Shown: positions 8,851 to 64,000 of the stretch, piece by piece | Layout of the letters: each line of letters starts with the position of its first letter | Numbering within the stretch: the stretch's first letter is position 1 | Assembly (NCBI GenBank): GCA_950295325.1 | Contig: OX485804.1 | Span: 46,314,001-46,378,000, forward strand | Direction of reading: 5' to 3' | DNA from: Polytrichum commune | Taxonomy: Eukaryota; Streptophyta; Polytrichopsida; Polytrichales; Polytrichaceae | Length of the DNA stretch: 64,000 bases | Notes under the pieces: model-generated | What the model was told of the DNA's origin: nothing | Database searches by the model: none | Seen by the model: only the letters and a program-made list of their open reading frames with translations | Position numbers and translations under genes: made by a program

Positions 8851-9447
8851 TACACTCATGCGCAATACTTCTAACAATGAATTGGGAGAACCAACCGCTA
8901 GTTACAAATGAACATGTGGACTTTGAAAAATAACCGATCAAAGTGCAGGACTTTACACAAATTTAAGGGTTGAGGGCAAAAATAGTCTACTCAACCAAAG
9001 AGTTGGTTTGAGCACCCTTTACCTTATGTAACGCGAGTGACTTTATTCAGTCAATGTCCAATGTGTGTCACCTACTTTAAGCCCAATTATTGTCACGATG
9101 GAAATGTAAACATGCATTGTATTATGTTATTAAGTTAAGGATCAGAAGCGTAACTCAAAGGTTTACATGGAGGTGGAAGTCAACTACAAAGCATTAGCCC
9201 AAACAAGTTTCACTTTGCAGCCGTGTGTATAATACAAATGGATCATCCTTGGTTTGAACTTTGAATTGACTTTATTTTGAAATTCATAAATTGCCGAAAT
9301 TGAATGATTTCAATTGCATAGACTTTCTAATGCAATTGCTAATAATTGGAAAAGAATCTGGCGGGATGCAAGTAACTACATAGACATGTTGATAGTTGGA
9401 GGTCCCTGTTTAACCTCACTTGTACATAGCATCTGAGGGGTTTATTG

Positions 9448-9640
9448 AACATAGTCGGTTGAGATCCTAGTGTTTCCAAGTACAACCGGTTACATGTTGA
9501 CATCTTTCAAATTTTCTTTAACAATTTAAGATATGTTCTTTAAATTTCTCTAAAATGATCGCTAATTTTTCTGAGGTTTTGAGCTTCAACCAGTTAATTT
9601 TCAAATTCAACCGGTTCATCTGTAACTAGCACTCTTCTCT
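9448..9640. mobile_element. CCGGTT-rich MITE copy
   Basis: GGTTGAGATCCTAGTGTTTC, CAACCGGTTACATGTTGACA, TCTCTAAAATGATCGCTAAT and CAAATTCAACCGGTTCAT occur in the same order as in 26911-27140. The outer ends are eroded. A partial second copy begins at 9708 (GGGGAGATTGAAG then AATCGGTTGAGATCCTAG). Confidence 0.55.
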
Positions 9641-10832
9641 CCAAGTTGATATGTGTGATTTCAAAAATGTCGATTAGCACGTTCACTAGAACGTTGACTA
9701 GCATCAATGTCTGGGGAGATTGAAGTACAAAATCGGTTGAGATCCTAGATTTAGACTACCTGTGAAGGGAGGCAAGCCATTCACAGCAACCACCAACTAA
9801 ATTTGTAAGCGGAGTAGAGCATGAAGATGGATTGGAACCCATATTACCGAGCTTCCACAAGAGCATCTGCATACACCATGGTGAGTAATACACATATTCA
9901 TGTATAACAACATCCTTACCTTCAACTTTAAAATGTTGTGCAAATTGAAATTCGGCAATTGAGATGTGCTAATTACATGTGCAAGAAGGTAAGGCATCGA
10001 TGCAGCCCTCAACATGACTAAACATGGACAGTCCACATATTGCAAAAGCTTCACAAGTAGTGGATTGAAAGAGAAGTGGATCAGTATCATTCATCAACGA
10101 GCATTTATTTGGAATCCACTTTGTGGCATTGAAATTTGTACAACTATGTGTTGGCAAGTCTAGCTCATTGTGAGAGAAGTGGATTATCGCAACCATAATA
10201 ACAACATATTGAGGTAGGATTTCATTCAAGTTAGTGCGGATGTTAGGTGTTATATCCCGGCAATGGCATTAAACCTGTGGTAGAAGGATTGCCGGGAAAT
10301 TACATCCACCATGAGAATTGGGAAGCGCATTAAATCACACATTTTTTATATCATTATCTGAGAAGGGCCTTCAAATGGTAACCGTTGCCAGGTTGTTCAA
10401 AAAATATTGAATTAATCAATGTTATGGAAGAAAACATTTAAATCAAATTTTTTGATCTAGTGACACCCCTCATTCCAAGCAACATGTATGTGAAGTGGTC
10501 AATTTCATATATAGTTGACAAAGAGGACAAAGCTTGAACATGGTGATTAGCAATCATAGTTTGCTCACAATTATAAGTTATAGATTATTTACCACAAAGC
10601 ATGTTATATATTTAGAACTTATGCAAGGGAGTTGATCCTTGTATGTTATTCAAAAAGATACTCAAATCATAAATAAACCCCAAATTAAATGGAAATTTCC
10701 ATTAAACAAACTCATTGTAGTACCTACTAGCCAGATGGTGAAAGTATATTTTTTGGGTATGTATATCCTAGTATAATGTATGTATATGTTAATACATATG
10801 AATATATTAATATATATATGTGTGTGTATGTA

Positions 10833-12053
10833 TAGTGACAAACGAAATTGAGTACTTTGTTGAAGAAGTCAACTTTGACAAGCCATTACAGACAATGTAG
10901 ATATTCTTTTGCAAAGCTCAAAAGTGAGTTTAAAAAAAAAAGTTATATATATGCAAAGTTATACATCATATTGAAAACTAGACAATCTTCTATAATTAAC
11001 AATCACCAACCATATACAAGTACTTAGTATTGTTCGATCTACTTCTTTGAACTTCAATAATCTATCCAATAGCCTCTAGCAGCCAATGCAACAGCAATCC
11101 TTCGTGGCATACTCTCATATAGTGCCATACAATCCTCTTCACTAAAATTAGAAGAAACAATGCACACACGCTCCACAATTCTTCAATTCCTCATGGAGGT
11201 GTAGAAAATTCATTCAAACGTCGTTTGAGAAGAGCCCAAAAATGCTCCATGGGATTCAAACTTCATCTACTCATTGAAAATAACACGTTTCCAATCATGA
11301 ACGGTCCAATTTGCATACCTGCAAGCAAACCTCACCCGTGCCTGAACATGTCTTCTTGTCAACAACGGCTTCTTCTGTTGCACATGTGCAGTGAAACCTT
11401 CCCATCGCAAAGCATGTCTCATAGTTACATTAGACACATTTTTACGTGAGTCATTTCGAATCTTTGTTGCCACCTTTGATGCAACTCCCAAACTCCCTTC
11501 CGTAAGCAAGGTGACACATCTCTGCCTCATCCTCGCAGTAAGGTGTCTTGGGCACCCTCCTTTTTGTGTCTCAAACTCCCTTGTGATCTCTTTTCTAAGC
11601 CTAACTACCCAAGATTGACTCATCCCAATTGCATCCGCAACTTTTTGTGTTGAATTGCCATTCCGAAGTTGCTCCAACGCTTGGAGTTGTTGCGACGCAG
11701 ATGAACGAGGCATACAGAAGCAATTGCACGAATGCTCACTATTACACAATCTCCAAATGCAAAGCGTCACAATGCACTAATGATCTAACGAAATTGAGCA
11801 TAAATCAGTATGCAAATGAAAATTGAAGTTTGGTTGGTGGCTCCAAAGAAAACTAAGTCTATGAACCCTAGCCACTTTGACATGGCTATTATCAGAAACC
11901 CTATTTTTTTTGAAATTTTCGTTTTACATACATGAAGAAGACTACTTTATACACATACTTTGCTTAATTACTTCGATGATATCAAATTTCAATCGCTAGA
12001 GATTGCTTGCCGAAATTGAATATCAGTTGAGTACTCAGTTTTGTTTGTCATTG
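10833..12053 (-). mobile_element. Tc1/mariner-superfamily transposon, TA target duplication
   Basis: The element is 1221 bp long. The left end, TAGTGACAAACGAAATTGAG, and the reverse complement of the right end, CAATGACAAACAAAACTGAG, both continue into TACT, giving 24-bp terminal inverted repeats with four mismatches. A TA dinucleotide flanks both ends (10831-10832 and 12054-12055), the target duplication of this superfamily. Inside, on the minus strand, is a deleted transposase gene of Tc1 type. The element is non-autonomous as it stands. Confidence 0.85.
11054..11713 (-). pseudogene. Tc1-type DDE transposase, internally deleted
   Basis: The reading frame starts MPRSSASQQLQALEQL and holds two helix-turn-helix segments (for example TQKVADAIGMSQSWVVRLRK). 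It then runs through KKPLLTRRHVQARVRFA to DWKRVIFNE, the region of the first catalytic Asp, where it stops. The next bases resume in another frame with NPMEHFWALLKRRLNEF, which carries the third catalytic residue (E of a DD34E triad), then a stop codon, a further frameshift and YESMPRRIAVALAARG, the typical Tc1 C-terminus. About 110-120 codons, including the second Asp, are missing. The wording of the N-terminus and of WTVHDWKRVIF resembles fungal Tc1 transposases more than the DD39D mariner-like proteins usual in plants. This is a judgement from memory of the families. Confidence 0.8.
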
Positions 12054-13599
12054 TATGTATCAATAAGTATGTTTGTACATATCAATACTCAATTCCCATC
12101 TGTAGTTAATTCCAATGCTTGCAAATAAATTATAAATCTAGGTACTGCAAATAGTAATAAAACTAATGCTCATGTCTTGGGTAAAAGTTTTCATAATGTC
12201 TACCATGGGGGAGGGTGAGAGTTTAAAGAAATATTGTATAACCCGATGGTTTCTATTGCAAGTCAAATTGCAAAGCCTCCTCATATCCCCACCCACATCC
12301 TCCATTCGAACTCAACGCCCTCCGTTGTTGTTGCCATCTCCCGCGCCCATTGCTATGTTTGTAGTCATCCTACTCCACTTTGTTGGAGCAGGCATGCCTT
12401 TAATCATCCTAGTCTTGGTCATGTTGGTCATCTTCCTCATCGTGTCCTTGCCACTCGTCTTCATTGTTGTGTCCTAGCCGTCCATCTTCACTATGTTCGC
12501 TTGCCCTACTCCCCCATCACCACGATTGCTCGTGTTTTTTGTGATATCCATCGTCGTGATCCTCTTTGCCATGTTTGCCTACCTTGCTCCCCATCGTTGT
12601 GGTTGCTCACCTTCGCCGTGGCCATCTTGCTTGTGATCTCGACCATCATGGCCCTCTTCACCCTAGTTGCCTACACTACCCCCCACCACTTCCCTCGTGA
12701 CCATCCCAGTGTTGGTCTCCTTCGTTGTGGCGGTCCTTGTCTTTGTCCATGGTTGCCTAGGTTGTTTGGCTCATTATGGCCATAGCCAGCCCTACCGGTT
12801 TGGCATCTTAGCCAATGTGAGGTGCCTTTCACCTGCTCTAGGCTAGGCATCCAGCGTCCATATTTGCCAACCCTTTTTGCTTGTACCATCACCTCATTAA
12901 AGAGGTTAGATTGGAGAATCCAAAGAACACTACAGTGACTGGGTGACACATTGCATGGCAACGTGATCTCTACCCTAACTACCTTTCTACTTTCAAAACG
13001 AAGGCAAGTATGCAGCCTCTTAGTTTTGTGCTTGAATTTTGGTTTGATGTCTTGTTTTTTTCAATGTCTATGTCTTAATTTACTTGAGGTTATGTTTCTA
13101 ATGTTGGTTTCCTCTTCCTTGTAGTAAACAACAATATATGTTGTTTCTTGTGGCACTCTTGAATCACCCACATAGAAATTGTCACCCTCCTCTTTGTTTA
13201 CTCATTGCTTTCATAGTTTTAGGTGTTTTATGGCCATGTTTTTCTGCCATGGGTGTGAGATTTAGGGTAGGATACCTCATCCATAGGCGGTCGCCACTCT
13301 TGCACTTCACAACCCTACCTTTTGTGTTTTTGGGGCCACTCGCTCTTCTTATTTTGTCATGCATGTTTGTAAGTTCTTTTGTAACATTTAAGTGCCCATA
13401 ACCCTTGTTGGTGTGTGGTTTTTGTTCTAAAATCCTTGCCAAGTCTTTTCCAAATGTAGGCAAAATTGTTGTTACCTAGTTTTTTGTGAGTCCCAAACAT
13501 TTGCTAGTAAGTATTTTGTGATTTTGTGTTGAAGCAAACCCTTTCTTGTGTTCAAGAAAACCCTTGCTTACGTTTGTAATGTTCATTGTGCATGTTTGG

Positions 13600-62361: not shown

Positions 62362-62601
62362 CACCCTTATCCACAACTAGCCATGTAGGACTCCATGTAG
62401 ACTTTTCATCCACGAACTTTTCTTTGGGCCTTTAGGCCTTCACCTCCTAGTGTGAAGTGAACTTGGACGGTCTCCGCCTTTTCGACCAATGAGAGCTCTT
62501 ACATTGCCGTGGTCAAGGGCCTTCAGCCTTGTGTGTGAAGTGGCCCTTAGTATTGAGCAAGACAAATATAATTGGTGACACTAAACACGATGTTTAGTGT
62601 A

Positions 62602-63661
62602 CACCCTAACCTTGATAATGTCACACCCTCCGTTTCACCAAAAAGTGTGATATAAACAAGGTGTGACATACTTGATAATGTCACATTTTGTGCATAATGT
62701 GATATTATCAAAAAATATGTAGAAAATCAAAATATAATTACAATTTTAAAAAAATAACAAATACGAGACTTCAATGTTTTTGAATGTAAAATCTAATTCA
62801 AAATTGTGAATAACAACAAGAGCACATTATAATGTGTCATTGAGATCAGGTAAAGACCTCTCACTAGAGACAAAGAAGCTTCTAATGTCACATTGTTTTG
62901 TTGATGTTAAATGTGCAACACCAATTCTAATGAGTTTGTCATGGATTTTTTCCATTTCTAACAACTCATGAGTGCTGAAATATGAGAACCTTGGCTAGCC
63001 ATAAAATTCAAAACATCTTTAGCATATTTTTGTGCACCGCTTAGCTTCACTACTTTAGACTCATCATCACTGCTATCTCAATGGGTCCACTTCCATGGAA
63101 TCAAGAACCTGTTCGCCATCTTGCACTGATTGCACAAGCTCCTCAGTAGAAAATTCCACCTCAAAATCATCTTCACCTTCCATGTTTATGTACTCCAAAG
63201 GACAAAGCTTTTCTACAGGCTTGCCTTCAACATCCAAACCCAAATTTAATGCGGCGACGAGTCTACCCAATTCCAAAGTTGCTTCCTCCATTTTGGACTT
63301 CATACGTTCATCAAGATTGTTTATATATGCATTCTGTGGAGCTGCGAGAAGTTGATATGCGAGAGAAACCGTTGCTTCTTCGGCACATAAGATTCAAGAT
63401 TCAAGAACCCAAGATTCAAGCGGAAGCAGGTGAAGATGCCGACATCATCCATATAATTTGTTGTCCATCCGGCCTTTTTTCATCCATGTTACTTGTTATT
63501 ATCACACTTACACTACAAATTTTGAAAAAAAATGGTGACATTATCAAGGGTGATAGTGATAATAACGAGGGAGTTTTACACTATGGAAATCGGTTTCAAA
63601 CTTTTAGGTGACAATATCAAGGTGTTCTATTGACAAGTGTGATATTATCAAGGTTAGGGTG
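62602..63661 (-). mobile_element. Pogo/Tc1-like element with 25-bp TIRs and TA target duplication
   Basis: The left end CACCCTAACCTTGATAATGT and the reverse complement of the right end CACCCTAACCTTGATAATAT both go on into CACAC, one mismatch in 25. TA flanks both ends (62600-62601 and 63662-63663). More copies of the motif TTGATAATGTCACA lie just inside the left end, as subterminal repeats. The element is 1060 bp and encodes only a short C-terminal transposase-like tail on the minus strand, so it is a deletion derivative. It was inserted directly next to the repeat unit that ends at 62599. Confidence 0.7.
63073..63345 (-). pseudogene. Possible C-terminal tail of a pogo/Tigger-like transposase
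   Basis: The minus-strand frame reads NAYINNLDERMKSKMEEA, then LGRLVAALNLGLDVEG, then the acidic block LEYINMEGEDDFEVEFSTEE, and stops at 63073. Alternation of a short helical part, a Leu-rich part and an acidic EYIN..GED..F..EELV tail resembles the C-terminus of pogo/Tigger (DDE_1) transposases. Its position inside a TA-flanked element supports this reading. No DDE core remains, so the identity is tentative. Confidence 0.4.
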
Positions 63662-64000
63662 TAACTTATTAGTGTCGTCGGAGAAGTGGGCCAATAAGAA
63701 AGAGGCGAGCAAGTATGACCCTTAGGGCATCCCCAGGAGAGATAGAAAGCAACCCGCCAAAAATAATATATTATATGGTGTTTAGGGTGTTTGGGGAGCC
63801 CTCCATCTTGGGCGGGGCAGCTCATCTTGAGTCAGAGCCCACCAAAGCCTAGGCATACCCCCGGTATAATTAGGAAGCAATCAATAAGACAACGACACCT
63901 ATTATCTGACATGGGATAAAGTAGGATATCGGAGTATCTGATATTAAAGTAATCTCTTGGCGGGCCGGAGGAGGGTCGCCATATGAACCATTTATGATGT

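Follow-up and report, generated by a model that had tools for sequence, protein, structure and literature searches.

The DNA between positions 10833 and 12053 of the window (the whole analysed stretch of 64,000 nucleotides) is very probably a dead, internally deleted, non-autonomous copy of a resident family of Tc1-like DNA transposons in a moss or moss-like genome. Taken alone, this copy is an ordinary transposon relic, and the family, while real, is unsurprising, since a Tc1 element of this kind has already been described in another moss (PMC4054914). Of wider interest is the population to which it belongs, a chromosome-scale, multi-clade set of Tc1 elements, one of them nested in another, in a genome that is probably that of a moss; the published idea that such elements passed from fungi to mosses can be tested on these clades.

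The element in the window

The ends, the TA duplications and the terminal repeats of the element are as the earlier note had placed them (Table 1). Among 327,772 pairs of TA dinucleotides spaced 600–1800 bp apart in the window, only five show an inverted match of at least 19/24: one pair delimits this element, two belong to another element at 62.6 kb, and the last two are at 8.9 kb; thus, the terminal repeats are not due to chance. The family consensus begins with CAGTGAC, and the window copy with TAGTGAC at the left and CAATGAC at the right (complement) end, that is, its CAGT start, read as TAGT and CAAT, has one base altered per end.

Table 1. Features of the Tc1-like element (window coordinates)
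Feature	Position	Strand	Evidence or remark
Tc1-like (DD34E) element, internally deleted, non-autonomous (very probable)	10833..12053	-	1,221 bp; ends and repeats, genome matches, 6.4% from family consensus
TA target-site duplication, left	10831..10832	.	Read from sequence
TA target-site duplication, right	12054..12055	.	Read from sequence
Terminal inverted repeat, left, TAGTGACAAACGAAATTGAGTACT	10833..10856	+	20/24 vs right repeat
Terminal inverted repeat, right (complement CAATGACAAACAAAACTGAGTACT)	12030..12053	-	24 nt, 20/24 vs left repeat
N-terminal transposase remnant, 148 aa from ATG, helix-turn-helix domains	11267..11713	-	Pfam, both domains above cut-off
Internal deletion junction, 356 bp (family consensus 797-1152)	11260..11261	.	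Alignment to family consensus
C-terminal transposase remnant (NPMEHFWALLKRR ... SMPRRI)	11054..11260	-	At first out of frame with the first piece

The translation of positions 11054-11713, previously treated as one protein, contains three internal stops and lacks 356 bp compared to the family consensus. The Tc1 peptide motifs listed along with it are indeed all encoded on the minus strand, but not in one continuous protein: WTVHDWKRVIF closes the first transposase piece, SMPRRI lies in the last one, and NPMEHFWALLKRR is encoded between them, by the DNA of the junction, in a different reading frame. The N-terminal remnant ends with FNE and a stop where the family has FSDE; it matches the Pfam families HTH_Tnp_Tc3_2 (2.4e-10, 41 bits) and HTH_23 (9.6e-06, 25.7 bits), and no Pfam match to a DDE domain was found in it. 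The second catalytic Asp is deleted, and the codon of the first Asp has become one for Glu, with a stop after it. No microhomology is obvious by eye at the deletion junction. This copy is unable to make a transposase.

The family in the genome

The genome (407.8 Mb, 64 contigs) was searched with the window element, yielding 73 matching pieces, distributed over all seven chromosome-size contigs (42–78 Mb each); as only 40 of the 81 candidates were scored, the family counts are lower bounds. Related DNA is present in each of the 38 fetched loci (L011-L048), two of which, L041 and L045, lie on the same strand 14 kb apart and may together represent a single copy. Twenty-six of these loci and the window copy were set out end to end, and the other 12 were left out. 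The usual end of the 26 copies is CAGTGACGAAC, with TA outside. Target sites were checked in 20 of the 26 copies (L020, L026, L028, L034, L035, and L037 were excluded, and the end of L031 was shifted by one base before the count, after inspection of the alignment): 14, residing on six of the seven large contigs, have TA on both sides, and six, with ends as set here, lack TA at one or both sides.

The genome search for full-length copies, suggested in the earlier note, provided 19 longer copies for a consensus (six of the 26 were excluded for long insertions or unusual ends, and neither L044 nor the window copy was given a vote). The majority consensus has 1,588 bp and a single frame of 338 aa. 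Its terminal repeats begin with CAGT, CAGTGACGAAC being found at both ends, and agree in 22 of the first 24 bases and in fewer beyond. The catalytic triad is D148, D240, and E275, with exactly 34 residues between the last two, hence DD34E. The 19 copies diverge from the consensus by 5.0–7.4%, the window copy by 6.4%, and the mean pairwise identity among the family copies is 89.3% (190 pairs).

One copy, L013, retains an uninterrupted frame of 338 aa and all three catalytic residues (D, D, and E), being the sole such copy among the 26 and the window copy; the next longest frame starting with ATG has 189 aa. The L013 product matches HTH_Tnp_Tc3_2 and DDE_3 above the Pfam cut-offs, and HTH_23 just below it (24.1 vs 24.6 bits). 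Given the mean identity and a single intact copy, the sequences provide no evidence for current movement of the window family. Locus L044 is a shorter derivative (544 bp) lacking consensus positions 180-1232; its alignment reads as 22.2% divergence from the consensus, which we take for misalignment of its short sequence, and its two pieces are 88–89% identical to the window copy. An AlphaFold model built from seven sequences is too poor (mean pLDDT 47.2) to serve as support.

Class assignment and comparison with known elements

The presence of a DD34E Tc1 element on a plant chromosome is supported by the 34-residue spacing of the consensus (D240/E275) and the similarity of L013 to Sleeping Beauty; the spacing is a feature of the consensus, the window copy being devoid of the second Asp. 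Sleeping Beauty (Tc1-type, PDB 5cr4), an animal element reconstructed from fish, aligns with residues 109-337 of L013 (E = 2.2e-47, 40% identical), this comparison being confined to the catalytic domain. The DD39D triad of the plant mariner elements (PlantMar) does not fit the family, which has D, D, 34 residues, and E. PlantMar elements belong to the same superfamily, but are DD39D rather than DD34E, and are, according to PMC7325037, restricted to flowering plants and some oomycetes, with none in Bryophyta.

Tc1-like elements have been described in the moss P. patens (Physcomitrium patens), namely, PpTc1 and PpTc2, along with mostly fragmentary Tc1-like sequences from nine flowering plants (PMC4054914, 2014). 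Compared via its published size, ORF length, and ends, PpTc1 is nearly the same size as the family consensus (1,584 vs 1,588 bp), encodes a protein of exactly the same length (338 aa), and shares CAGT ends, TA duplication, DD34E, and multiple copies in a moss. It differs in the average identity of full-length copies (96.3% vs 89.3% pairwise here) and in the repeats, which are 33 bp long, vs 22 of the first 24 consensus bases and fewer beyond in our family (PMC4054914). PpTc2, compared by its description, also has 338 aa, DD34E, and CAGT ends, but is 1,709 bp long and is placed by its authors in the Tc3 clade (PMC4054914). PpTc1 and PpTc2 have been reported to be nearer to fungal elements than to those of plants, and transfer from fungi has been proposed (PMC7466625, 2020). 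Hence, an unrecognised plant Tc1 lineage, suggested in the earlier note, is not supported: such elements were described in a moss in 2014 (PMC4054914), their closeness to fungal ones in 2020, and the idea of fungus-to-moss Tc1 transfer is already in print for a moss (PMC7466625). In the open-access literature searched, we met no report of Tc1 elements from any moss but P. patens.

By analogy with other Tc1 elements, the family presumably moved by cut-and-paste with its own enzyme. The 338-aa transposase would bind the terminal repeats via two helix-turn-helix domains, the DD34E catalytic centre would excise the element, and the excised element would be pasted into a TA, which would thereby be duplicated. 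The window copy either could have been mobilised only in trans, by the enzyme of intact relatives, or could have lost its middle after insertion; both trans-mobilisation and the timing of the deletion relative to the insertion are what we infer rather than observe.

Other Tc1 clades

A search with the consensus protein produced 126 matches at 38–91% identity (119 of 950 first-look candidates were scored). The tree built from them has 45 rows: Sleeping Beauty (root), the family consensus, the window copy, L011, L013, and 40 loci from the 126 matches, of which 20 (L052-L071) were picked mainly for few stops and 20 (L074-L093) for identity spread; L025 was dropped, and stops were turned into gaps. 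In this tree, the window family (support 1.00) and a more diverged sister group (0.85) join as one clade (1.00). Separate clades, with support 1.00 each, are formed by the L052-type, L054-type, L062-type, and L069/L088-type loci, and L092 groups with none of these. Identity to the consensus protein of the window family ranges from 38 to 66% in the 40 loci outside it.

The L052-type and L054-type clades look younger, given DNA identity of 94.3–97.6% among six loci each. Loci L052 (contig C1, 29.37 Mb), L053 (C6, 19.17 Mb), and L054 (C6, 7.06 Mb) have unbroken transposase frames of 390, 391, and 340 aa, respectively; the frames of L052 and L053 carry an additional N-terminal stretch, which may be only leader read-through. 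In a scan of the ends of 20 loci, 11 had CAGTGAC-like or CAGTTA-like repeats (at least 20/24) beside TA, and in the other nine no such repeats were found at this threshold.

Nested insertion and residence in the genome

One family copy, L033, is inserted at a TA inside a Tc1 copy of the more diverged sister clade. When L033 is removed and one TA is kept, the joined flanks align unbroken to ten loci of the sister clade (803–810 columns, 80–86% identical); the joint is gap-free in the best sister locus, L061, and a 4-base gap lies beside it in L085. Aligned empty sites, also brought up in the earlier note, are therefore available for the sister copy L033 and not for the window copy, for which the genome search with its flanks found no paralogous empty site. 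Besides the two flanks themselves, this search returned 52 weaker, short matches; only one of them lies away from the TA/TG-rich stretch that surrounds the insertion point.

These data bear on two rival explanations. A contig chimera, with breaks at 10833 and 12053, was named in the earlier note as a refuting condition; nothing was found in its favour, and it is refuted by the related copies on all seven chromosome-size contigs, TA-flanked on six of them, and fungal DNA contamination is ruled out by L033, nested in another resident element; taken as a whole, an artefact of this kind is hardly conceivable. A recent arrival of a lone Tc1 element in this genome, by horizontal transfer from a fungus, would agree with the Tc1 (DD34E) type of the transposase, which is not the DD39D type of flowering plants, and with the report that the closest published plant relatives by build, PpTc1 and PpTc2, are nearest to fungal elements and possibly transferred (PMC7466625). 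However, related DNA in 38 fetched loci, copies 5.0–7.4% away from the consensus, further Tc1 clades at 38–66% identity among 40 loci, and the nesting of L033 in a more diverged clade make a single recent transfer very improbable. The diverged clades, the decay of the copies, and the nested insertion together speak for long residence of the family rather than a fresh transfer.

The host

The plastid contig C8 (146,561 bp) carries rbcL, a 297-aa frame with a Fer4_NifH match, which we take for chlL, and a 344-aa frame with an RNA_pol_L match, taken for rpoA; trnR-CCG is flanked by rbcL and by a frame that looks, by eye, like accD. Flowering plants are not known to carry chlL; early-branching mosses may keep rpoA. 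Among the best 60 of 84 matches each, psaA and psaB score highest against chains of 6l35, 7ksq, 7kux, 7xqp, and 8htu (1634 and 1672 bits, respectively), the last four presumably being P. patens structures too, followed by 9lut (1609 and 1634) and other chains (at most 1569 and 1601). According to the title of PMC7884438, 6L35 comes from P. patens. Rubisco was also compared with PDB structures and was not decisive for the host placement. A flowering-plant host was considered and rejected due to the chlL-type gene on C8, trnR-CCG after rbcL, and psaA and psaB being closest to Physcomitrium structures among the best 60 of 84 matches.

In PMC5877570, the absence of rpoA is described as typical of moss plastomes, and three of them have 122,890, 124,374, and 127,489 bp; C8 is larger than all three, and carrying both a chlL-type and an rpoA-type gene would be unusual for a moss plastome by that account. 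Table 4 of the same paper gives cysT as present in a hornwort and a liverwort and absent from two mosses, and a search of C8 for cysT gave no BPD_transp_1 family match. Judging by these genes, the host is probably a moss; an early-branching one would fit both the rpoA-type match and the 146.6-kb size of the plastid contig.

Origin of the family

With long residence preferred over a fresh arrival, both old vertical descent and an old transfer from fungi are possible. More broadly, fungi (or animals) may have passed such elements to the moss lineage long ago or more than once, with diversification in the host thereafter; this is a serious candidate, if somewhat short of an even chance. It agrees with several well separated Tc1 clades in one genome, with two other clades that look younger (94.3–97.6% identity among six loci each), and with the published fungal affinity of the P. 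patens elements (PMC7466625); at the same time, with Sleeping Beauty as the sole outside row, the tree looks the same under in-host diversification and under repeated entry. No relatives were found in two scans each of the viral_contigs and the prokaryote genome_contigs, which, being viral and prokaryotic collections, say little about relatives in fungi or animals. A more far-reaching picture, in which the host, probably an early-branching moss, is a Tc1 hot spot whose copies probably number in the hundreds, belong to several clades, some of them young, and entered repeatedly from fungi, and in which mosses serve as a standing cross-kingdom meeting ground, is speculative and on balance unlikely.

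Other features of the window

A second element of ~1.06 kb is located at 62600-63663; its inverted ends (TACACCCTAACCTTGATAATGTCACAC) are 27 nt long and 96% complementary. Its family gave 796 first-look candidates, of which 40 were scored, and most long matches are 97–98% identical, so that it looks very numerous and young. A weaker TA-flanked inverted pair at 8901-9626 (19/24), beginning with GTTACAAATGAACATG, is possibly another element. An exon-like frame on the minus strand at 43934-44422 matches the N-terminal domain of DNA ligase (Pfam DNA_ligase_A_N, 4.9e-16).
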